Part shown: in pieces, positions 42,345 to 63,365 of the stretch
Position numbering within the stretch: the first letter of the stretch is position 1
How the letters are laid out: each line of letters opens with the position of its first letter
From: Diphasiastrum complanatum
Taxonomy: Eukaryota; Streptophyta; Lycopodiopsida; Lycopodiales; Lycopodiaceae
Length of the DNA stretch: 64,000 nt
Assembly: GCA_029204225.1 (NCBI GenBank)
Contig: CM055102.1
Location: 48,962,289 to 49,026,288 of the forward strand
Reading direction: 5' to 3'
Notes under the pieces: generated by a model
Told to the model about the DNA's origin: nothing
What the model saw: only the letters and a program-made list of their open reading frames with translations
Database searches by the model: none
Made by a program: the position numbers and the translations under genes

Positions 42345-42420
42345 GAAAGGGTCCAACATTTTTTGGGCACCGTTGTTGGGGAGACGGTGCCAAACTACTG
42401 CCTGGATGGGTTTTTGTTGT
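42345..42420 (+). other. Gypsy leader segment, left part of an interrupted element
   Basis: TTTTTTGGGCACCGTTGTTG followed by GGGGAGACGGTGCC is the GC-rich block that follows the 5' LTR of Athila/Tat-type plant gypsy elements. Its gag-pol resumes at 52158 on the same strand, so 42420-51880 is best seen as an insertion. Confidence 0.5.
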
Positions 42421-42469
42421 ATTTTTGTCAGGTTTATGACTTGCCTATAGGCTTTTTTCCACTTTTTCT

Positions 42470-42600
42470 TCACCTTCCTGACTCGCCACTTTTCCAATGA
42501 GTTAAGCAAATATCAGACTCTGTTCTGAGAGTTCGACGAGTCAAAATCTTTGACTTGCACCTGATTAGCCTACAAAGGCCTGACTCGCCTATTTGATTTT
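42470..42600 (+). repeat. Left subterminal repeat cluster
   Basis: GACTCGCC at about 42480 and 42582, CGACGAGTCA near 42534, GACTTGC near 42551 and 42430. These are short, diverged copies of one octamer in both orientations. Confidence 0.6.
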
Positions 42601-43143
42601 TTCATTTTTTCTTGTCCATTTGATTTGCGATCTGCACAGAGTGATCAATAGCCTCAGAGCCATCATCATTAGAGAAACTTAGAGCCTGACAAGGGCCTTT
42701 GAAAAAGATGCTTTTTATTTTTTTTCTTATTTTCGTTGCCATGTGGACCAATTGAAACCTTAGCTTTGGGATTCTACGTAACATAGAATTTTTCAAATAT
42801 AAATAAAATAAAAACTTGTTAAATATATTGCTGTTTCGTTGGGCAGTATGTGGAAATGCTATTGGTTGATGAGGCTTGCCCTTCCAACTCATCACTGCCC
42901 GAAGAGACCCAAAAATATTGAAAATTAATATGACAGATGGTTGAGAAGAGAAAATCGATGTACTATTAATGTATATGCATTGTCAAACCATGGTTAACAA
43001 GGATAACCAGAGTTAATTTATGGCGCCAAATAGATCAGTGTTTCAAATTTTTGCCAACACTTTTTCTCAGATTCATGGCTTTTTGTCTACGCAAATTTTC
43101 AGATTCATAGTTCATTGTTTCAGATTTTTGCATGCAAATTACG

Positions 43144-44512
43144 AATGGCGCCATCAAGGAAGTCGTGCTCCTCAATTGACTCTATGCTTCTATTCAACGA
43201 GACAGATGATAATGAATTATGGGTGCCAAGAAAATATTCAAAAAACTCTTGGGTTTTGATGCATCCATCACCAAGAGGAGCATTTCGAAAAAGGAAAAGG
43301 TCAAAACTATCATTTCGATCTTATTGGAAGGCCAAAATTTTGGATTTCAGAACATCATCATGAGAAAAATCTATTTCTGAAATATAGTCCAACATGTATA
43401 TATGCATTCAGAGATAAATGTGCAAGGATTCCACCGTCAAGATCACAAAAAAAGCAACTGTGAGTATTGATATTTTTGATACTTTGATTTTTGTCATTCA
43501 TAAATATCTAATAATAAACTTGCCAATCTGATTATTTTTCTCTTGCAGATTTATATCCATCCAACATAAATGAATGAGAGCCGAGTGGATCTTTAGCAGT
43601 TGTGTTAGATGTTATTCACACTGATATTGGACAGCTGCAATATCGAGGTAGAACTGCAAAAGATCTAGCTGATAGTGGAATCTTTTTTTATGAATCAATG
43701 TACATTCTTGATACAAATTTTTTTTTTGGACAAATAGTACCAATTCTATTACCTAGTTTTGAAAGTGATGAATGGATTGCACCAGCTGCTACAATTTCAG
43801 AATCATTTTGTTGCAAGATATATAATGATGTAAAAAATTCATTAAAAATGAGCACGAGATAAAAAACAGTCAGATTGAGTTGGTTTATTTTCTTGAATAT
43901 ATTTGTGGATTTCTTTTCAAGTGTCAATGTTCACAAAACCCCAACGATGTTTGTATGCAAAAATTTATCAGATAGTTTATTATTTGAACTTATGGATGAA
44001 GGCTGGGACAAAAGATCAGATGGAGAAATAGAATGCAGAATTAAAATGTCTTCCATGTGCTTCTGTTATCAAATTGAAAAACAAATGTTAAGCTTATGCT
44101 TCCATTATCAAAGATGAAAAAAAAAAACAAAGGTAAATGAGTGCCACTCGATCAAGACTTGGAAGCCAATGGACATTCAAAATGAAAAAAATATTAAAAT
44201 TATATACAATGATGTCATTTTGACATGTGTTGAGGTGGAAGAAGATTGGAGTCTAAACTACATCCGGTGGAAACTATTGCTCCTACAAGATGATGTACTT
44301 TCAGACTTCAGATTCATTTTCAATGGTAAACTCGTAAGTAACTGTAAACACTCGATCTTTTATGAATAGTTTCAATCAAAACTTTCTAATACAATTTTTG
44401 AACTAATTCTAACTAACTTTGTATTAGTTTTATGCAGGTATGTAAAAGACATGAGCTCGAGATCAAATGCAGAGATATTGGCGAAACAATCCAACTTATA
44501 GAAGAACATTGA
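43144..44512 (+). CDS. Gene A: unknown protein, several exons
   Basis: Not recognised. A first exon from ATG 43144 encodes MAPSRKSCSSIDSML and a basic RKRKRSK stretch that could be a nuclear signal. A second open stretch at 43560-43862 contains YRGRTAKDLADSG and is preceded by a pyrimidine tract and CAG at about 43548. The last two exons are the best supported: 44130-44333 (ending FIFNGKL) and 44438-44512, with GTAAGT and TTTTATGCAG splice signals that keep the frame, then TGA. A polyadenylation signal follows at 44628. The penultimate exon (IKIIYNDVILTCVEVEEDW then LSDFRFIFNG) vaguely recalls a ubiquitin-like fold, but this is a guess. Stops near 43375 and 43585 mean the 5' model is incomplete or damaged. 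Confidence 0.4.
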
Positions 44513-44627
44513 GATTCACTATCAACAAATACATGCCAATCATCATGTCTTTTTATCATTATAGAAAAATTGCATTCCATTATTAGACTATGGACACAAG
44601 CTGATTGTAAGAATCTATTGTGATATC

Positions 44628-44633
44628 AATAAA
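44628..44633 (+). terminator. Polyadenylation signal of gene A
   Basis: AATAAA 116 bases after the stop codon, in AT-rich sequence with following T-rich stretches. Gene B ends on the opposite strand at 44710, so the two genes converge. Confidence 0.55.
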
Positions 44634-44709
44634 AAAAACCCGTAAACAGATTGTTTTTAAGTAAAATGATTGTACTTTTTTTTATGTCTCTCTGTTTATA
44701 AATAGATCT

Positions 44710-46732
44710 CTATTTAATCAATTTTTCTATATTTTCTATATCAGTATTAGGAATTGATAAAGCAACATCTCCTTCTATAATCTCCCCCTCCTCTGTTTCG
44801 GAAAGGGCCTCAATGCCTTTTATGTCAAGAGGAATATCTACTACAAAATTGTCTTCCTCTGTATTAGGAAGGACTTTTATTCGTTTTTGATCATATAAAA
44901 TAAGATCTACATCCTGAACAACCTGAAAGGTTGTTAAGACAGGAGCAAATTCCTTTTGAGGGCCCTCGATTGCAGGTGCAATGCTTACACCATACTGGGC
45001 AAAGGTTCTGATCAACTCTTGCCGAAGTCTATATACATCATCAGGAGTATACGGCTCAAGAGTGAACTGTCCTCACAAAATACGAGAATCAGCAAATTAC
45101 AAACAATGATAGTAATAAAATATGAATCAGAATGAAATGAACTACAAATGAATAGAATATTACCTTTTCAATATCTACATCTGTTTGTAAATTATACCAT
45201 TCAAAAAATAACTTCGTATTGTACAGGATGAAGCATGCACAAGTAAAAGCGTCATTCTGATGTACACACTGCATATAGAGAACCAAAATTAGTAATATTA
45301 TGATAGAAATTTTATTTATACTATGACGATACATTTGATTTAAAAAAACGAATACATGCACATCAGAGATAAATCAATATACCTTCAGAGATTTGATGGT
45401 TATATCTCCAATTGAAGTTGCCGTTGTCGGTATTTTTCGAACGACATCATGAAGTAGAGAATCAAATTCTCTATGTGTATTTGCAACTGAGTTTAATTTT
45501 ACACATAGAAAATTTAATTATGAAAAAATTCTGTTCTTATTAATGCAATGAGGCATGCAACAATCCAAAATAAAGCAACAAAAACAAAAGAGCAATCCTT
45601 ACTTATTTTCATATGGAATCAAATAGAATTTCGCCATAGGACTGCACTCGATAAAATAGACAGTCTTCTCAAAATTGGCTTCTTTCGCCTTTACGGCTCC
45701 CATGAAAAATGGACTAACTACAAAAACTGTACCATGGGAATCAAAACTAATACTATTCTGCAAAAATGAAACACCGGCCTCTACTATTGCATCTGAAGTT
45801 TCTGAGGTCTTATCTTTAAGCTCGGCACAAAATTTAGGACCTAATCTAAAGCTTCTACGTGTATCTGGAAGAAAAAAAATCAAAAAAGTTGCCGAGAAGA
45901 TCAATTTTGTTAGCTAGGTAGGCCTCTATTGATTATAATGGTCAGAATAAAAAAAACCTGGGATGGATCGTATGGAATTCTCACAAAAAGATCATGTACA
46001 GGAGGGGCAGAAAGAGAAGTGGAAACAATATTTACAGATTTCTCTGTTATTTTGTCTAGCTCCTCTTGGGTAATTAACAGTTTTGGTGATGAAACCTGCT
46101 GAGCAGCTGGACGAATAGTAGGAGGAGGACTGGGTGAAGATTCTTGATCTAAGTCAGATTCTCCAGCATCTGACTTAGAGTTCAGAATGACATGGGCTCT
46201 TTTGGCCGGGATACGTCTAGGAGGAAGGGAAGCAGCTGGCCTTTGAGATCCAGCCTTCTTGGGGACAGCCCGTTTTCTCTTCCTCCTAGAGGAAGTAGGC
46301 ATGTCGGTTCTATCCATAGGCAGGTCTCTGGAGGTGTTGGCATTATCTACATACAGACCAGAATATCTATCCCGAAGCCTTTTGAGAATGACGAAATCCT
46401 TTGGCATGATGGTGACACGCTTATCATGCACTGCCAAAAGACAAGTATCCTCAAAAAATTGGGACAAAAAATCTTCTGCAGCACCTTGCAAGGCCTGCAT
46501 GGCTGTCACGGCAAAACGAACATCAATCCCAAGTGACAAAATTTTATTTCGGACAGATCGGCCAAAAGGAGCTCTAGGGATCAACAATTCAGTTGATCTT
46601 TGGAGTTTTTTTTATCTCCGTAAGCCAGACCTACTTCTTGCCACACCTACGACCAGTACCAGGGGGAACACGAGAATGGGATGGCTGTACAATGGTGATG
46701 GCACGGGCAGCGGATTTAGTCCTGGCCATCAT
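44710..46732 (-). CDS. Gene B: histone H3-like protein with long C-terminal extension and further exons
   Basis: The N-terminal end reads MARTKSAARA, with the ARTK of histone H3 but without the ARKS at K9. After a stop codon and a one-base shift in an A8 run, the frame resumes with STELLIPRAPFGR and an H3 fold: FAVTAMQALQGAAEDF (helix 2) and FEDTCLLAVHDKRVTIMPKD (loop 2). Loop 1 has canonical length, unlike centromeric H3. A ~130-residue extension follows, with RRKRKR and a Ser/Pro/acidic stretch, where normal H3 ends. Likely splice signals then join exons at about 45904-45603, 45470-45383, 45268-45164 and 45066-44710 (stop). The last three are in phase; the first junction is not. No known H3 has this extension. 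Broken tail frame may be mutation or assembly error. Confidence 0.6.
45383..45904 (-). other. Gene B middle exons, weakly like a C48/Ulp1 cysteine protease
   Basis: DSHGTVFVVSPFFMG, KTVYFIECSPMAKFYLIPY and, in the next exon at 45268-45164, CVHQNDAFTCACFILYN follow the order of the Ulp1 core (beta strands, then Q-x(5-6)-C). The presumed nucleophile Cys is present in FTCACF, but the catalytic HW pair is not seen, so activity is doubtful. This is a fold guess from short motifs. Confidence 0.3.
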
Positions 46733-46994
46733 TCTCAGAAGAAGAAAATTAACAAAAAGAAGTTTGAAATAAACAAAAGTGGATCAAAACAAAAAAAAAT
46801 TGTGATGAAAGGGTGCTTGAGATTGATACCAGCACTGAATATCGGTTTCGAACGCAAGATCTACAGTGATTATATGCAAAAAAGAGATGTGGGCTTGAAA
46901 GCGATATTGCACATAGACGGTATCGGACTCAAACGCCATCTGATGATTAGTCCACGTTGAATGTCCGTACTATATCCCTTTTCTTTCCTGCTCG
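46733..46994. promoter_or_regulatory. Putative bidirectional promoter between genes B and C
   Basis: About 260 bases separate the H3-like start (46732, minus) from the gene C frame (46995, plus). I saw no clear TATA box in either direction. The assignment rests on the divergent arrangement only. Confidence 0.35.
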
Positions 46995-48635
46995 TTGTTC
47001 TTGCCCCTCGGATCCGATACTCCAGCTTCCAATATCTCTTTCGAGCGCACGTTGCCTGGACTTGCTTGTCTGACCTGGTGTTTGCACTTAAGAGCAATAT
47101 TTGGAACTTCAGTTTTATTATTTTTGTTTAAAATATCTAATTTTGAATCCAAGTTGGTTTCTTTTTTTAATGAATTTGGTATTACTGATAGGTTGGACTA
47201 TTTCAAATCTCTTTTTTCTCCTTTTCTTTTTATTCTACCTTCTATAACTGAGGGCCCTCGTGTGGAGGCATTTTTTGAGATATATCTCAGATTTAAGTCC
47301 CTGCGTAGTACTCCGTTATTCAGGTCTCAGAATAAAGACATGATTCATTATCAGGACTTGGTGGCACTCGACAAGCATATCTATAAAGCTAAGCTTGATA
47401 GAATGTTTACCAAGTTACATAATGATTTCAAGTCTGTAGAGGAGTGCCCAATTCATAATAAAAAATGTAGATTTGTTGATTTTCAGTCTGTTTTTGTTTT
47501 TTTCCTTTTGTTAAATATTTTTGACGATTCGGACTCTGTGCTCTCCACTTCTGAAGCAGCTTCTTCTAGTGGTACAAAGTTTGAAAAGTCAAAGATTGTA
47601 GATATAGAAATCTTTTTTATTGATACAAGTGCTAATTTAGATGATTGTTCTGATTTTGTTCCTGCTCAAAATAGGTCTACCTTTATAGGCCATAGAACAC
47701 CCACCACCCTATCTCCTTCTGATAAATGTTTGATCACTTTGCCTACTTATAATATAGATAATAATTCTTTTTTGACAATATCGAATATATCGGATCTTTT
47801 TGACTTCACTGAAGTTGAGACTCTTTGCATTTTGAGCAAAGAGCTTGATGAATTTTTGGATATTATTGATTTTGATGCTGATGATCTTCTCCCTGGTGTT
47901 GACGATGTACATAATGATAAATTTTATTCAGGGAAAGATTGCTTGAAAATGGCTGTGGAGGAAATGCGCAACAAAGAAGATGATCTGCCTTCTGAGGATG
48001 AGTTTCTTAGAATCCAAAGTCAACTTGGATTTCCACAACCAACTGTCTATTCACCAACAATATTGACATCAAAAGGTGGACATAATATTGATGGTGAGAC
48101 AATAATCAGAGAAGACAAAGCCGAATGCGTAAGTTTTTGTCTCTTATCAAATACTAGTAGATTTTTTATGTCAGATTATATACTGGAGCTTATTTTGTTT
48201 TTTATCATTTCAGGAAACAATTTTCCTTGATGATTTCGCAATTCGTCGAGGAGGGCAAAGATCTTCTACGGGAGAATTTTCAAGAGATCATGCACTCGGG
48301 CACTATCTAAAGTCCTTCAAGAATAATGAGATAAGTGTTGCCCATTCAAAGTTTCATCAACATGGGCAATCAAGGCATTGCCTCATTTTCTTGGAGGACA
48401 TAATTTTAATAAGGTGCATAAAATAATTTTTGTAAAGAAAACTATTGCGGTTAAGATTTTAGGATATGGACCAGTGAATTCCATGTTCAGATCATCTCAT
48501 TTTGCAATGTATGCTGCTTACGTTTATCTTAGTAAGCATGTAAACTATGAGCTATTGGATCCATACAAAAGAAGAAAATTGTTGCATGATTCTACATTGC
48601 AACTTTCATTGGAAAAAATATCGGAAGCAGATTAG
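46995..48635 (+). CDS. Gene C: unknown acidic protein
   Basis: A 411-residue open frame begins at 46995 with a TTG codon in frame, so the true start is probably a later ATG or an upstream exon. It has ECPIHNKKC, a Ser-rich acidic stretch, and an Asp/Glu-rich segment (DIIDFDADDLLPGVDD). A convincing intron, GTAAGT at 48129 to CAG ending 48213, joins GAC-like phase 0 and continues ETIFLDDFAIRRGG. A one-base shift near 48350 is needed to reach the last block, LPHFLGGHNFNK to EKISEAD and stop at 48635. I recognise no domain. Compact intron and position opposite gene B suggest a partner protein of the same mobile unit. Confidence 0.45.
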
Positions 48636-48689
48636 ATACTGCTGAATTGTACTTTGTAAATATTTTTATTTAATATACAATTTTATTGT

Positions 48690-51145
48690 GTGTCTATAGC
48701 CTATTGGCTTGTATAAATTTGCATGCTTTTTGAAATTTTTTATAATCCGTCGATTTTGCATTATGACGAATTTGGATTCTTCTGTAAAACCATTGGAAAA
48801 GTTGTAGTATATAGCTGTTCTTTGTGCTAGTCCCGCCATGTTGTGTACTTTTATGAAATGTCGCTCTTGCTTGCCAATGAGATTCTTCCATTCCTTGCGA
48901 TGACCATATGCTAAGACTTCCAGTATTTCTTGCAAAGAATGTCGAATGATGTCGTAATATGTGCTGCATGTCATAAAAACACAATCTAAATTAGTACCAA
49001 AAGTATCTAATTTAATTGCACATATTTGTCTATGGTAGTGTAAAATCAAAATCTTACCACTGTAATGTGTTATATGATCAACACCCATTTTCTGTATCAT
49101 TTGAACATCAGTATTTGAAAATTTATCTTTTCTCAAGTATTTCACCATGTTGTCTGACTTTTTCCAAACTTCTACTTTGTGTATACGAGTAGAACCTTCT
49201 TCTTCAAAATCTTGAGTTGCTGCAATAATTTCTTTCCAAACCGTGTATTGAACCTTAGATTGTTTGCCAGAATAATTTGATAAAAATCTGCGAGCTTTAG
49301 ATCCTCCAATGCTTGGCTTGCATGGAATATTTCCTGTTTTACCTGATGTCTTTTGTTGTTTTCATGCAGTACAAACAAGGGTGTTTAGAGTTGGCGCCAT
49401 GAGATACATTGAACATACATTTTAATGTCTTCAGATCTCTTGCTAAATGCCATTCAATGTTGAAAAGCCAATTCCAAGAATATTGAGTGGAACTCCCTCC
49501 ATGTGATTTTTTATGGTGGTAGGATATGATGTTCTATCAAATATCCATGAGAGAATGTTATGGTCTTCTTTCAACATCTATAAGAGAATACAAAAACGTG
49601 ATTAGCCTCATAATATTAACACAGAGAGGATTTTAGATATGAAATCCATATTCAAATGATTATCCCTATTTATTATGCGAAGGAACTGCTATACCTGAAA
49701 TGCTGCCAACCACCAGATATCATTTTCTGATTGAACACTGAAATTGAGGCCTTCTGAGTCCTCTGAATTTGAAAGTGCTCCATTTATAATTGTGAGACTG
49801 ACTCTTTCCATTTTTTGTTCTTTTATAATTTCAGACTCATCTAACTTGAGAACAACTATCAACTTATTATTAACATTCTCATTTGTAATACCGTAAAAAA
49901 TTATGATGAATGTTAATAACTGATTAATGTCAATAAATAAATTGTTGAAATTGTTATATGCTAGACTTTCTCCTTTCGAACAATACACTCCATTGATATG
50001 AGATAAATTACAAACTATTGTCTGCATACCATGGTTTAACATGTCCCTTTTTTTTAAAGATGAAATGGTCGTGGGATTGGAAACTTTTTAATATTTACCT
50101 GTGCAAATGCCTCATTTATCATCTTAAACATTGTTGCATATGCTTCCCTACTGATGCTAGAAAAGTCACATGCCCCCTGAAGCAATGTAGTGTCTAATAT
50201 TTTTCCAACTTCATCCATAATGCTATTAGTAACTGAAGCCTTAATCTTTTTCATTTTGTTATTATTTAACATTGATTTCATAGATTTAGAAGTCAAGATA
50301 GAGCCTAGTGAGTTTCCAATTGAAATCTCATCGGCCAAAGGGTCTTCAACAACCAATGCTGATCTGCATTGCAAACATAATGTTCATGAAAATGTCAGTA
50401 GAAATTAGGACACTCATAGTATTCACAACAGTATATAATAAGCAAATCAACAGAAAGTTGAAATGAATAAATAACAAAATTAGTGATTATGAATAAATCA
50501 AAAAGTTCAAGCAATTTTCAGTACCAAATAAGCTATAACCTACTTCAATGCACGGATTCATCTTTTTCTATGACCTCCTCTGGATGATAGATCACATATA
50601 TCCTTGTTTACCAGTCTTTTCCTCTTGTTGCTTCGGACCTTTCTGTTGAGCACATTGATATCTTTAACAAGCGACAAATATGAGATACGCATGGATTGAA
50701 ATGCAATTTTCATCTCATGATTACTAGTTGTATAATGATGCAAAGAAGATTTCAACCTTTGGATCTCCTCTTTAAACATCTCATTTTCATCCAAACAAGT
50801 TTTTATCTTTGTAGATTTTTCTTCGCACTCCTTCGATATTTTCCTTGATTCCTCTTCCAAATAATGTATTCTTTGCATTGAATGTGCATTCCCATAGAGC
50901 ATCAAATTTTCACAATGACACATATAGATTATTAACTGACTCACCGAATGAAAATCTGGATGTTGCAATGAACATGGATCAATAGGATACAATGTTCCTG
51001 ATGACCATAAATCTACATGTTTTAGCTTTTCCTCCCCGTATCGGACCATATCAGAAGTTGACAATTTGGGTTGCTTTGAATTTCTTGTCCTAAGCGGAGC
51101 ATATTCTAGTGACAGATCCACATGAAGATGATAAAGCTTTGTCAT
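48690..51145 (-). CDS. Gene D: putative transposase-like protein, multi-exon
   Basis: Reading leftward: exon 51145-50558 encodes a Leu/Lys/Glu-rich coiled coil ending SNKRKR and SSRGGHRKR. Then come exons at about 50374-50099, 50042-49695, 49577-49060 and 48963-48694. Splice-like signals flank several of them (GTAAAT at 50098, GTATAG at 49694, TATAG before 49577, TGCAG before 48963). Diagnostic blocks are EWHLARDLKTLKCMF followed by HPCLYC (CxxC), and a late SSQGMEESHWQARATFHKS with TQHGG. Similar W-DLK, PCxxC and QGxE blocks occur in uncharacterised eukaryotic transposases, where Asp and Glu may be DDE residues. Frame breaks near 49430 and at the last junction leave the model provisional. 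Confidence 0.45.
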
Positions 51146-51525
51146 CAGTACAGTAGTATAGTAACAAACAACACAATGACAATAACAAAGCTAGAGATGG
51201 CGCTAACGACTCTGCCGGAGATAGAGATGGCGTAGGCTTTCTTCAGAAATCTCACTCCTAATTCAAATTTTTGAGTGTTCCAAATTATTGGGAGGAAATA
51301 TTTCAGCATTTTGAAAAATTATATTTTAACTATAGTTAAACACCAGTGAAGTTTGATGTGACTAAACTAAGGTGCATTCATTTACATGGAAAGTAGTGCA
51401 GGCAGATGCGTAAAGAACTTAGAAAATGATATTATAATTACTTTATAGTTATTTTTCTCTCTCCTACATGGCATTTTTTATAGGGCTCTCTTTGGGCCCA
51501 TATTTTCTCTAATGTCTGGAAGTCG
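51146..51525. other. 5' flank of gene D, no gene
   Basis: AT-rich upstream region of gene D. Contains two GAGATGGCG segments (51194 and 51224) about 30 bases apart. No promoter element could be fixed. Confidence 0.4.
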
Positions 51526-51862
51526 GCGAGTCAAACTGTCTAGTTTGTCCCTGACTCGCGATTTCAAATTTTTAGCCCATTTTCAGTTTCCCGTTTTTTT
51601 CTCTAGCTCGTCTGTCTGACTCTCCAATAGAGATATTTCTCTAATCTTTCAATATTTTTAGTATAGTAGGTAGTACAGTACCTGATCTATCATGTATGAG
51701 ATCGGCGAATAAAAAATTGTCTGACTTGTGCTTGTCTGAGTCGTCCATCTGCTAACTCGCCACCTGTTCCATCTGACTCGTCGCTCTTTTAGATAGTTCT
51801 AATCATCATGTGTAGTAAGTTGGTAGCTCGGTGAGTCAAAAAGTTCTGACTCGTCAACTGTG
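51526..51862 (-). repeat. Right subterminal repeat cluster
   Basis: At least six GACTCG/CGAGTC-type octamers between 51526 and 51862 (for example GGCGAGTCAA at 51527, CTGACTCGCG near 51552, AACTCGCCACC near 51755, CTGACTCGTC near 51773 and 51847). Orientation is mostly inverted relative to the left cluster. Confidence 0.6.
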
Positions 51863-52157
51863 AAAAATCCAAATTTTCCTGAACATTCGACTATTAGTGC
51901 CCATCTGTATTTTTCTATTGTTTTTATCTTTCTCGATTGCCTTTTGGATTCACGTTTACACCATCGTCCATCCATCTAGCTTTTATTTTGGTTCCCAATC
52001 TTATCTTGATTTGAGATTCATTATCGCATCAGTTTGATCATCAATCAGATCCAACAGATATTTGATCACCCATACGTAGAAAAGATCTACAAAAGTTATT
52101 TGAGAAAAAAGAATACGAAAAAGATAAAAAATAACTGAAAAGCAAAAATACCAAAAA

Positions 52158-57698: not shown

Positions 57699-57866
57699 CA
57701 CTCCCCCTTAAAGTGGATCCTGAAAAATTTTGATTTTCAGATTTAACATATTATTAAATCTGAGATGATGCTCCTTTGATAGAGCTTTGGTGAAGTAATC
57801 TGCTGCTTGTAGTTCTGTCCTGTAGTAAACCAGAGAAATTTTCTTGCTTTGCACTATCATGCCCAT
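57699..57866 (-). pseudogene. Copia C-terminal fragment
   Basis: Minus-strand translation reads KKISLVYYRTELQAADYFTK, then ALSKEHHLRF, matching the RNase H tail (usually ADxLTKPL). It ends in a stop followed by GGGGGAG. Cut off at 57866 by the gypsy LTR copy. Confidence 0.6.
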
Positions 57867-57868
57867 GA

Positions 57869-58347
57869 CTGGTCTCGGGTAGCGTGCCTACGCTAGGGAT
57901 CAATAGACCAACAACCCGTAAGTTAATTGTGATTATAAGGGAATTGAGACCCTTATGAGTACATGGTCATAATTAATGGTTGTAGGCCTAAACACATGGT
58001 GGTGGAGTTGGTATGGGTCTATTAATGAGTCATTGGAGAACTGGATGACGTGGCCCAGATAGGCTGCAGAGGTGTCCAGTGAGGTGTCACAGTGCACTAC
58101 TAGTGGTGCGTGGGCCTTGGAGGGTATAAGTATACCTATTGGGCTCTCACTAGTGTATGCTTGATTGCATGACTGGTAGTCGTATGCTGTTGGTGTGATG
58201 CCTCATTCCTCTTTGTGATTGATCCATAGCTTGGGGGCTAGATCCGTTCGATCTAGGTTTGGTTGGGTTGGTTTGTCCACCATCCGTTTCCCTTGTGTTG
58301 CTTGTGATTGGCATGCTTAGAATAGGATCCTTGATGTAGGACTTTAT
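57869..58347 (+). repeat. Gypsy LTR, copy 1 (479 bp)
   Basis: Closely similar to 58416-58930. Lacks the first two bases (TG) seen in copy 2, so truncated at its left edge. Confidence 0.85.
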
Positions 58348-58415
58348 CGAAAGCATAAGGAGGAACTTTCCCAGTTTTAAGTTCTGAGGACAGAACTTGA
58401 ATAAGGGGGGAAGAA
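58348..58415 (+). other. Gypsy 3' interior remnant with polypurine tract
   Basis: About 68 bases between the two LTR copies: AGTTCTGAGGACAGAACTT followed by GAATAAGGGGGGAAGAA directly before the LTR start TGTCATGCCC. This is the 3' end of a gypsy interior. Confidence 0.75.
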
Positions 58416-58930
58416 TGTCATGCCCATGACTGGTCTCGGGTAGCATGCCTACGCTAGGGATTAGTAGACCAACAACTCGTAAGTTAATTGTGACTATAAG
58501 GGAATTGGGGCCCTTATGAGTACATGGTCATAATTAATGGTTGTAGGCCTAAACACATGGTGGAGTTGGTATGGGTCTATCAGTGAGTCATTGGAGAATT
58601 GAATGATGTGGCCCAGATAGGCTGTAGAGGTGTCCAGTGAGGTGTCACAGTGCACTACTAGTGGTGCATGGGCCTTGGAGGGTATAGGTATACCTATTGG
58701 GCTCTCATTAGTGTATGCTTGATTGCATGACTGGTAGTCGTATGCTGCTGGTGTGATGCCTCATTCCTCTTTGTGATTGATCCATAGCTTGGGGGCTAGA
58801 TCTGTTCGATCTAGGTTTGGTTGGGTTGGTTTGTCCACCATCTGTTTCCCTTGTGTTGCTTGTGATTGGCATGCTTTGTGTTGCTTGTGATTGGCATGCT
58901 TAGAATAGGATCCTTGATGTAGGACTTTAT
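58416..58930 (+). repeat. Gypsy LTR, copy 2, followed by primer site
   Basis: Starts TGTCATGCCCATGACTGG and ends near GGACTTTAT. It contains an exact 25-bp tandem duplication (58851-58875 and 58876-58900) absent from copy 1. Confidence 0.85.
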
Positions 58931-59411: not shown

Positions 59412-60201
59412 TGAAGTGAACTGATCGTTTTTGCCTCAACTGCAGCTAGCAATTTTTAGGATGCGGAAGCATGCATTGTTTTGTAATTGTCGCATTTTTT
59501 CGGAAAAGCAAAAAATGCGCAAAATGCGAAGTATGTGAAACTTAGCGTATTTTACGCATCTAAGCACATTTCTTCAAATGTCGCATTTTTTGGGAAAGCG
59601 AAAAATGCGAAATACATGAAGCTACGTGCAGTTTTGTGCACTTAGGCACGTTTTAACTGTATTGGAAAACATGCGAAACTGCCGAAGAGAGAGAATGTGA
59701 AAATCCCGAAAAATGCAAAAAACCCGACAAAACTTTATGCACTAAGTTTTTGCACATCATGAATCTACAGCTAAGTTTTGATTGCTAAGTCAATATGATC
59801 CATTCATCAGAACAACAGTATACACATAAACAATATTATCATTCATGCATACACAACACAAAAACTGATAGAAAGATCTATTGCTTTATAAATCTCTTTT
59901 TGATAAGAGTTTACAGTCTGTCGCTTATCAGTGTGCTAGTTTCTGTTTTCTATTCTATAGCTCACTCTCTCCTTCTCTCTCTAATTCTTTGCGCTACGTT
60001 TGCACAAACTTATATTCTAACTTTACATCTTCTTTTAAGCTTTTCTTGTAAAACTAGTAGCTGCCTTTTAGCACTTGACTAATTACGGTTATCTAATTCT
60101 ATTGTACTTGTAGATTGCACTTGCGGCCGCCTTTGCGAGATCTGATTCGTCCCACATGGAGGTATCCAGGGATGAAGGAAAGTGAAGTTCATTTTTCAAC
60201 A
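59412..60201 (-). repeat. copia-6 3' LTR (790 bp)
   Basis: On the minus strand begins TGTTGAAAAATGAAC and ends near TTCACTTCA. It contains hairpins of CGCATTTTTT with AAAAAATGCG (59491-59500/59510-59519) and a similar pair at 59582/59601. TTATAAA near 59884-59890 and a CT-rich stretch near 59960 are also present. Confidence 0.9.
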
Positions 60202-60216
60202 CTCCCTCTTAAACTG
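60202..60216 (-). other. copia-6 polypurine tract
   Basis: On the minus strand TTTAAGAGGGAG precedes the LTR start TGTTGAAAAATG. Confidence 0.8.
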
Positions 60217-60416
60217 AAGATTCCTTTAGCCGACTCCCATTTTTGTCCTGTGTTTTTCAAACAGTTGTTGTGCAAGGGGCTTGGTCAGAACATCTGCTGT
60301 CATTTCTGTGGTCTTCACATACTCAATCTAAATTTCCTATTTCTGCACAAGATCTCTAATATGATGGTATTTGAGTGGAATGTGCTTTGTCCTGGAATGG
60401 AAGACAGGGTCTTGAG

Positions 60417-60989
60417 TCATGGAGATTGCGCTGGTATTATCCATATACATAACAGTAGGTTCTGCTTTTGCTCTCCTAGATCATTCAATAGTTGTCTCAG
60501 CCACACGATCTCGTTTGCATTCTTTGAAAAAACTACATATTCTGCTTTGCATGAGGATTGTGCGATGAGAGTCTGTTTTTTGCAAACCCAGCTTACTGGT
60601 CCTCCACATATCATGAAACATCCGCCAGTGACAGATTTGTTGTCGTCCTTCGAGCTTGCCCAAGTGGTGTCGCTATATGCCTTCAGAGTGGATTCATCTG
60701 GCTTGGAATAGACAATGCCAAAATGCATGGTCTGCTTGAGATATCGTAAGATTCTCTTAGTTAGCTCCCATTGGTACTTTTCTGGATTGTTAGAAAATTG
60801 TGCTAAAGCATAAACAGGAAAGGCCAAATCTGGTTGAGTGCATACAATCATATACATTAGAGCTCCGATCAGATTTCGAAAAGGTATATTACTCATTTTG
60901 AATTCTTCTTGCTCAGTCCTTGGACAGTCTTCTCTAGAAAGTTTTACTCCAAGTGCCATAGGAGTTTCCTTTCCTTTGCATTCTAACAT
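60417..60989 (-). CDS. copia-6 RT end and RNase H
   Basis: A 190-residue frame: MLECKGKETPMALGV, RNLIGALMYM, TQPDLAFPVYALAQF, KRILRYLKQT, then RNase H YSDTTWASSKDDNKS and SSCKAEYVVFSKNANEIVWL. In RNase H the usual SDSDWAGD reads SDTTWASS and CEAEY reads CKAEY, so two catalytic acids are altered. Sequence after 60417 downstream is short of the normal C-terminus by about 70 residues. It lies in phase-separated continuity with the RT frame at 61044, with a stop between. Confidence 0.88.
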   Translation of the reverse strand: MLECKGKETPMALGVKLSREDCPRTEQEEFKMSNIPFRNLIGALMYMIVCTQPDLAFPVYALAQFSNNPEKYQWELTKRILRYLKQTMHFGIVYSKPDESTLKAYSDTTWASSKDDNKSVTGGCFMICGGPVSWVCKKQTLIAQSSCKAEYVVFSKNANEIVWLRQLLNDLGEQKQNLLLCIWIIPAQSP

Positions 60990-61043
60990 TGCGTAGTCTG
61001 CTAGAATTTTATAGGCATAACTATCGTGAGAAAGTTTTATAGT

Positions 61044-61646
61044 TCATGTGGTGTTATTATTAGCGATTTCTATTCCTAGGAATTTCTTAGCCTCACCAAG
61101 GTTTGTTATTTCGAACTCTCGTCCTATAAGATCCTTGGTTTCTTTTATCATCTCTAAGTCATTACCGAACATTAGAGTGTCGTCAACAAATACAGCTAAG
61201 ATTAAGGAACTATCACCTTCAGTCTTAATAAAGATATCATTGTCTGAAACTAATCTTCTAAAACCAATAGAGATTAAAAATTCAAACATTCTCTTATGCC
61301 AAGCTCTTGCGGCTTGCTTTAACCCATAAATGCACTTCTTCAGTTTACAACACAGATCAATAAATTCTTGGTTGTGAAAGCCTTTTGGATGTCTCATGTA
61401 GATTTCTTCATCGAGAAATCCATGAAGGAATGCAGTCTTGATATCAATATGATGGACAAATAAGGAATGTGAAACAGCTAAAGCAAATAGGAGGCGAATG
61501 GTAGACTGTTTTACCATAGAGGAGAATGTCTCTTGGTAGTCTATTTCATATTTCTGAGAATACCCCTTGGCTACCAATCTGGCCTTGTATCGCTCAGCAC
61601 TTCCATCCGGTTTCAACTTTAGTTTGTAGACCCAATTGCAGTCCAC
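61044..61646 (-). CDS. copia-6 reverse transcriptase
   Basis: A 200-residue open frame containing CNWVYKLKLKPDGS, RYKARLVAKGYSQ, IDIKTAFLHGFLDEEIYM, CIYGLKQAARAWH and the catalytic box FVDDTLMFG (copia: YVDD). LGEAKKFLGIEI follows. A stop at 61044 separates it from the RNase H frame. The upstream linker is present but broken (WRKTMQEKIDSM, W T L E). Integrase should precede it but is deleted. Confidence 0.92.
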   Translation of the reverse strand: MDCNWVYKLKLKPDGSAERYKARLVAKGYSQKYEIDYQETFSSMVKQSTIRLLFALAVSHSLFVHHIDIKTAFLHGFLDEEIYMRHPKGFHNQEFIDLCCKLKKCIYGLKQAARAWHKRMFEFLISIGFRRLVSDNDIFIKTEGDSSLILAVFVDDTLMFGNDLEMIKETKDLIGREFEITNLGEAKKFLGIEIANNNTT

Positions 61647-61649
61647 AAT

Positions 61650-61943
61650 TTTTCTTCCTTATGGTGGTTGCTCCAATGTCCACACTTCATTTTTATGCAT
61701 TGAGTCGATTTTCTCCTGCATTGTCTTCCTCCATTCTTTTGATTCATGACTTGTAATTGTTTCTAAGTAAGTTTTGGGTTCTGTTGTTATCAGACATCAG
61801 TTCTCATCGCAGTTGTTTGTTGCAACTTTCTCAATAGTCTTCTGTCAGATTCTGATAGAGCATCTTGGCTCAACTAGATTCTTCGGTTGTTCAGATTGTA
61901 CTGGTTGTTGTGGGGACTGTGGCTTCTGTCACTCAATCGCTTT
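61650..61943 (-). pseudogene. copia-6 integrase-RT linker and deletion joint
   Basis: Minus-strand reading gives QSPQQPVQSEQPKNLVEP, then ESKEWRKTMQEKIDSM, interrupted by stops. It joins the end of gag directly to the linker, so the knuckle, protease and integrase lie in the deletion. Confidence 0.6.
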
Positions 61944-62543
61944 CTACACTCTTCCTTTCTGTTTTCTTCTGAAAATGGATGCTTGGTCATCGCTGTCTTG
62001 AGAGTCAATATGATCTCTCATGATGACTTCACCCTTCACAGCTTTAATAGCATCGCTGAATGTCATGTTAGGCATCCTCATGAGTATTGACCTCAGGCTG
62101 TAGTAGGGAGATGGTAGAGTTCTTATAAAGTGTAAGAACTGCTGCTCCGGTGGGATCACATGAGTCTGATTCGCATCAAAAATGGCTTTCATCTTCCCAG
62201 CATGCTTGTCTAGATCACTGCCGTCCCACTTCATATTCAGAAGCTGATTGTTGAGATGCAAGATCTCTGCATTGGTCATCTGCTCATGTTTGGCCTGTAG
62301 CCTTTTCCACATTTTGTGGCTAGTCTCACAGTCCACGGTGGTCATCACGATGTCTTCTGCAAGTGACAGAGTGATGAGCGCCATTGCTCTATCATTCTAC
62401 TTTCTCCATTCAGCCGGATTTTGTTGTGGTCTGACTTCTATTCCATCCACTACGCTCCATAGGCCTTCTCCTCTGAGTTTCCAGACAACGTAGTTGCTGC
62501 CATCGAATACTCTCACAACTTTTTGTTGTAGGTTTGTTGCCAT
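61944..62543 (-). pseudogene. copia-6 gag, one stop codon
   Basis: The ATG at 62543-62541 lies about 15 bases beyond the primer site and starts MATNLQQKVVRVFDGSNY, a normal copia gag start. One TAG near 62392 interrupts it before the 146-residue frame 61944-62384, which has LAEDIVMTTVDCETSHKMW, LHLNNQLLNMKWDG and FIRTLPSPYYSLRSILM. Apart from the stop the gag domain reads through. The zinc knuckle that should follow is missing. Confidence 0.88.
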
Positions 62544-62558
62544 TTGATAGTCTATAGT

Positions 62559-62570
62559 GCTCAGATACCA
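62559..62570 (-). other. copia-6 primer-binding site
   Basis: On the minus strand TGGTATCTGAGC, one base from the LTR end. It differs by one base from the tRNA-iMet site. Confidence 0.85.
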
Positions 62571-62571
62571 C

Positions 62572-63365
62572 TGAAGAGAACTGATCGTTTCTGCCTCAAC
62601 TGTAACTAGTAATTTTTAGGATGCGGAAGCATGCATTGTTTTGTAATTTTTGCATTTTTCTGGAAAAGCAAAAAATGCGAAGTATGCGAAACTTAGTGTA
62701 TTTTACGCATCTAAGCACATTTTGTCGCATTTTTTGAGAAAGCAAAAAATGCAAAATACACGAAGCCACATGCAGTTTTGTGCACTTAGGCACGTTTTAA
62801 CTGTACTAGAAAAAATGCGAAAATGCTGAAGAGAGAGAATGCAAAAATTCCGAAAAATGCGAAAAACCCGACAAAACTTTATGCGCTAAGTTTTTGCACA
62901 TCATGAATCTACAACTAACTTTTGATTGCTAAGTCAATATGATCCATTCATCAGAACAACAATATACACATAAACAATACTATCATTCATGCATACACAA
63001 CACAAAAACTGATAGAAAGATCTATTGCTTTATAAATCTCTTTTGGATAAGAGTTTACAATCTGCCGCTTATCAGTGTGCTAGTTTATGTTTTCTATTCT
63101 ATAGTTGTATCATCTTCTCTTCTATCTCACTCTCTCCTTCTCTCTGTGATTCTTTGCGCTACGTTGCACAAACTTATATTCTATCTTTACATCTTCTTCT
63201 AAGCTTTTTTTGTAAAACTAATAGCCGCGTTTTAGCACCTGAATAGTTACGGTTATCTGATTCTATTGTACTTGCGGATTGCACTTGCGGCCGCCTTTGC
63301 GAGATCTGATTCGTCCCACGTGGAGGTATCCACGGATGAAGGAAAGTGAAGTTCATTTTTCAATA
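62572..63365 (-). repeat. copia-6 5' LTR (794 bp)
   Basis: Matches 59412-60201 with scattered substitutions and small indels, including a GTATCATCTTCTC insertion near 63107-63120. Confidence 0.9.

Follow-up and report, generated by a model that had tools for sequence, protein, structure and literature searches.

The window analysed here is a 64,000-nt stretch of the Diphasiastrum complanatum genome, and the searches covered the whole 1.74-Gb assembly (5,176 contigs). In the window a retroelement is split by a block with four intron-bearing gene models on alternating strands (+, -, +, -), as the first-pass annotation had described, the introns being inferred by inspection. Alignment with further genomic copies shows homology beginning at 42667 and ceasing at 51514, which gives an inserted copy of 8,848 bp; the ends proposed earlier, 42420 and 51880, were placed about 250 and 370 bp too far out. 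The features are as follows (in brackets, the basis of each).

42420..42666, + strand: left flank, outside the transposon; GACTCG-bearing host retroelement (empty-site alignment)
42667..51514, no strand: whole transposon copy, degenerate (ends common to other copies; empty relatives contiguous across it)
42667..42697, + strand: left terminal inverted repeat with the CATTAGAGAAA tip (copy alignment; exact family left-end pattern)
43145..44512, + strand: gene A, orphan of several exons, approximate model, broken in the window copy (ORFs in other copies)
44723..46729, - strand: gene B, histone H3, linker and putative Ulp1/Peptidase_C48 domain, with a stop and a frameshift in H3 here (Pfam and PDB matches)
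46936..46973, no strand: site between the divergent genes B and C at which fuller copies have about 0.8-1.1 kb that is absent here (alignment break in L011, L015, L019, L023)
47133..48635, + strand: gene C, orphan, two exons by inspection, 47133-48128 and 48214-48635 (reading frames in copies)
48694..51145, - strand: gene D, candidate DDE transposase, its N-terminal part coiled-coil-like; five exons as judged by inspection, 51145-50544, 50363-50099, 50021-49695, 49577-49058 and 48963-48694 (copies, motif positions)
51484..51514, - strand: right terminal inverted repeat (copy alignment; exact family right-end pattern)
51515..51880, + strand: right flank, the same retroelement resumes, with GACTCG motifs, outside the transposon (empty-site alignment)

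That a single retroelement supplies both flanks, one half each, follows from two relatives, L075 and L076, in which the halves are contiguous and the sequence continues through the insertion point. The view that a single element had been split was thereby borne out, together with the empty sites it predicted, while the gypsy label attached to that element was left unconfirmed: none of the five flanking ORFs tested matched a Pfam family at E ≤ 0.01. The GACTCG clusters had been read as subterminal inverted repeats of the insert. This was wrong, since the motifs stand on both sides of the site in the empty retroelement (L076 alignment) and are not parts of the transposon. The description of the insert as "giant" was also too strong, as the nine two-ended copies span about 6.5-10.7 kb, nested insertions possibly included, and the element as such is put at roughly 9-10 kb.

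The tips of the element are inverted repeats, CATTAGAGAAA on the left and TTTCTCTAATG on the right, and the termini CATTAG..CTAATG, read at left and right ends, are of the 5'-CA..TG-3' type. Over 31 bp the repeats are identical at 22 of 31 positions in the window copy and at 23 of 31 in L019; at least 22 matches were reached by 2 of 431,649 sampled internal 31-mer pairs. The window copy has a perfect 11-bp tip, placed exactly at both borders. Among about 3.96 million internal pairs, 7 equal it, and taken alone this tip is weaker evidence than the 31-bp repeat. Most right ends printed also carry, shortly before CTAATG, a hairpin of the GGGCCC-N5-GGGCCC type (read from sequence), one arm of which is altered in the window copy. 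Twenty-five of the 30 right-end loci L029-L058 were read, and all 25 finish in ...TCTAATG, after which the sequence diverges; the five others (L031, L033, L040, L041, L047) went unread through a strand test in the script or a variant end. The exception to the diverging flanks is a set of pairs or triplets with identical flanks, apparently assembly duplicates.

Genome-wide, the exact left-end pattern was found at 248 places and the exact right-end pattern at 655, and the reversed-pattern control gave 0 in both searches. Other copies thus exist, as had been anticipated, and several two-ended copies have both ends in common with the window copy in the alignment. The left end of the window copy is two bases off the pattern and is therefore outside the 248, and the 1,557-2,138 matches of a first look are raw candidates rather than verified copy counts. 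With exact ends, a terminal inverted repeat and hundreds of copies, the transposon is a discrete mobile unit. Before counting, we omitted L002-L007, L033 and L046 (at the places of fetched copies) and L001 and L029 (the window itself); the near-duplicates L043, L044, L032, L058, L052 and L011 were also left out of the identity and codon-position tests, in which L021 and L008 (99.96% identical) were both kept. Mean identity among copies is 95.2% (265 compared pairs). Many copies are truncated or nested, and all four genes are open in no copy examined, most copies having been fetched only in part. Overlapping 240-nt windows showed no codon-position bias among copies at p<0.01, the power being low in much of genes B and C, where the depth is 2-7. 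Selection therefore gives no proof of coding function; the variation within the family looks like neutral decay.

Near-identical copies or identical right flanks occur on different contigs or at different places (L038/L043/L044, L021/L008, L036/L058, L045/L052 and L032/L039). These groups are probably duplicated or haplotype stretches of the assembly, and such duplicates among the copies mean that the end counts are somewhat inflated. L011 and L019 (C3:10.32 and 10.60 Mb) are 99.35% identical in opposite orientation and have about 83 bp of left flank in common; on this evidence the pair is a segmental duplication and not two insertions. Over 1.7 Mb at C1:48.58-50.24 Mb, 15 exact left ends are interleaved with 22 CACTA Tnp2 matches, with no exact right end, among the matches listed; the stretch is perhaps an amplified array with a left fragment of the transposon family.

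Aligned ends had been expected to yield an inverted repeat and a target duplication, and the inverted repeat was found. None of the nine copies that could be read at both ends had a duplication of 2-12 bp, where the cross-pair control at k=2 matches by chance in 7 of 72; a one-base flank match occurs in 2 of 9 copies vs 15 of 72 cross-pairs. The empty relative L076 runs ...GCCATCAT|TCTAGAAG... straight through the window insertion site. Both Ts that make up the apparent one-base match are present in it, and insertion therefore neither duplicated nor removed a base; L075 aligns over the same junction without a break. When the flanks of the C8 insertion are joined, several relatives match them over exactly the length of the query (e.g., 117 nt for 1-117), as judged from match places and lengths. 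For the C1:33.1-Mb and C2:45.4-Mb copies, joining the flanks restores unbroken copia-like reading frames of hosts that we take to be copia. These data indicate a 0-bp join without target loss at the sites with a readable empty relative or an in-frame host gene. Across 24 distinct right flanks and 13 left ones the target preference is A/T richness only, with no fixed A|T or T|T and no AAATTT motif.

The "histone-like protein" noticed in the first pass is a histone H3. The composite read of gene B from several copies matches PF00125 (Pfam) at E=7.6e-24 and the window's own ORF does so at E=2.2e-18, and the protein starts with MARTK-x-TAR, the start of the H3 N-terminal tail. A PDB search with this H3 matched 179 sequences, the best 60 of which are all H3-type. 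H3.1 (81.3 bits) and CENP-A (79.3 bits) score nearly equally, so no H3 subtype was given to gene B. CENP-A has a loop 1 insertion, and the H3.1 alignment, in which the gene B fold is gapless across loop 1, argues against an insertion of that type. Weak matches beside the H3 match (C2c1_helical, Spore_GerAC, CbiC, BLYB and CENP-T_C) were set aside as chance-level, and a plasmid search with the H3 region gave no match. All five copies covering the region (L019, L023, L015, L009 and the window) have a stop in H3, L011 being outside this set as a near-duplicate of L019; the stops occupy four positions, L015 having one in common with L019, and the window copy is also frameshifted. Because H3 was lost at different places, its reading frame was probably intact in the source copy. 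The H3 gene is typical of the family.

The exons 3' of H3, again in composite, match PF02902 (Ulp1) at E=0.0039 and 17.5 bits, below the 20.7 cut-off. Read by eye, the strings HW and QQNDAFSC stand at the expected catalytic positions (His, Asp and Cys in C48 domains) of the putative C48 domain, which had no PDB match at E ≤ 10. The exon order suggests that H3 is probably joined to a SUMO-protease-like domain in one gene. The search reads of genes B and D are chimeras of several copies.

Gene D is damaged in the window copy by a frameshift and by deletions at about 49344 and 49087, with a loss of about 265 bp and about 38 bp. Its exon 1 is fully open in three of the 11 copies with the right half printed (L050, L049 and L041, the last with an unread gap) and broken at various places in the other eight; fuller copies supply the remainder of the gene. 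The spliced composite contains, in order, LKLDES, GDLK, CLYC, HILRH and QGMEKS, that is, the motif order D, D, C(2)C, H(3)H, E, with the catalytic residues assigned by eye on the composite read and a second H(4)H-like string downstream of the assigned E. Searches with gene D against Pfam (E ≤ 10), PDB, NCBIfam and PHROGs gave nothing credible. The gene does not match PF02992 (Tnp2) at E ≤ 10, and hhalign with one CACTA Tnp2 of the same genome gave nothing, in a low-power comparison of single sequences. A search of viral contigs for distant homologues confirmed none and returned two pattern matches; a mitochondrial mS27 match in PDB (E=0.42) was set aside as chance-level. The earlier remark that none of the genes is a nameable transposase stands at the family level; at the level of motifs gene D, with its CMCT-type order, is a candidate transposase. 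Gene A, tested in three pieces, has no Pfam family below E=0.19, and gene C has no Pfam family at E ≤ 10 and no NCBIfam family at E ≤ 1, its best PHROGs match being at E=0.3. With the stop and frameshift in H3, the losses in gene D and about 1 kb gone between genes B and C, the window copy cannot act alone and, judged from its sequence, is dead.

As excerpted, PMC12730594 defines CMCT (CACTA-Mirage-Chapaev-Transib) by C(2)C and H(3-4)H between the second D and E, with mostly CA..TG termini, and gives these elements target duplications of 2-5 bp. With this clade (EnSpm/CACTA, Mirage, Chapaev, Transib, Plavaka, ESTA, Lanisha) the transposon has in common the CA..TG tips and, in the candidate transposase gene D, the order D, D, C(2)C, H(3-4)H, E. 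It differs in joining at 0 bp where the clade makes 2-5 bp duplications (0 of 9 copies), in matching neither PF02992 nor the one CACTA Tnp2 of this genome that was compared, and in encoding histone H3; since PF02992 does not match gene D, the transposon was not classed as CACTA. Among plant elements, Ulp1 genes are carried by Kaonashi-type MULEs and some CACTAs. They likewise place a C48-like protease domain within a DNA transposon, whereas here that domain follows a histone H3 and the ends and target-site behaviour are others. Spy (PHIS superfamily) is likewise a TIR element without target-site duplication; the AAATTT preference given for it in the excerpt of PMC4482050 is absent here, and gene D has no match to a Pfam transposase model. 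Chromatin- or epigenome-acting accessory genes are also found in fungal transposons with TET/JBP and oomycete ones with SET (PMC12730594, in excerpt), and in the present element the accessory is a core histone. Full-text searches of open-licence papers gave, among the matches listed, no report of a transposon-encoded H3.

Could the block be a chance mosaic of unrelated repeats and no mobile unit at all? Truncated or nested copies are common enough to raise the question, but several copies have identical exact ends and the precise empty sites refute it, leaving it a negligible probability. A Helitron-like rolling-circle element would account for the lack of both target duplication and target loss and for the hairpin ahead of CTAATG. 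Helitrons encode a Rep/helicase, begin with 5'-TC, end with CTRR-3' in an A|T target and have no TIR; they make no target duplication and carry a hairpin near the 3' end. The inverted repeats at both ends, the flanks without a fixed A|T or T|T target and the absence of a Rep/helicase domain from the proteins scanned make this origin very improbable. An endogenous or transposon-like DNA virus with a captured host histone agrees with the H3 gene, the genes on both strands and the TIRs, and viruses with histones are known (PMC9145170, as excerpted). We regard it as hardly credible, for the proteins scanned include no viral hallmark gene, the gene models have introns, and the copies are dispersed in their hundreds with clean ends.

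A non-autonomous gene-carrying transposon deserves longer consideration. Genes A-D would then be captured or orphan, and a transposase encoded elsewhere, for example by a CACTA element, would act in trans. Pfam, PHROGs and NCBIfam do not recognise gene D, PF02992 domains are abundant in the genome (180 matches from 150 scored of 5,473 candidates), and the copies examined, most of them in part, include none with four open genes. CACTA elements make target duplications of 2-4 bp. Against a CACTA acting in trans, PF02992 does not match gene D, and nine copies give a 0-bp duplication vs the 2-5 bp of CMCT elements in the excerpt of PMC12730594. Gene D also has the motif order expected of a transposase, which counts against the non-autonomous explanation as a whole, and we judge that explanation unlikely.

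The reading we prefer, with a probability of about 0.6, is a high-copy and now decayed lineage of autonomous-type TIR DNA transposons whose ends and motifs resemble those of CMCT, which joins at 0 bp and which carries H3-Ulp1 as an accessory protein. Gene D, as a CMCT-type DDE transposase, would excise the element at its CA..TG tips and attach the two ends to opposite strands of the target with no stagger. The gene B protein, with its H3 and Ulp1-like deSUMOylating domain, would act at the level of chromatin, by packaging the element or by lifting silencing linked to SUMO and heterochromatin, and genes A and C would supply accessory proteins. The combination of H3, a SUMO-protease-like domain and duplication-free insertion may represent a new DNA transposon lineage. 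Tentatively, and with rather more doubt than confidence, we propose an undescribed eukaryotic TIR superfamily, sister to or within CMCT, that joins without a stagger and packages or de-silences its DNA with its own H3-Ulp1 protein. A core histone would give a high-copy DNA transposon a direct means to alter silencing chromatin. Joining at 0 bp is rare among TIR transposons, Spy being the group found in print, and would widen the known range of DDE target cutting.

Elsewhere in the window, unexplained direct repeats lie at 57857-58857 and 59412-63363, with spacings of about 560 bp and about 3.15 kb and identities of 90-96%.
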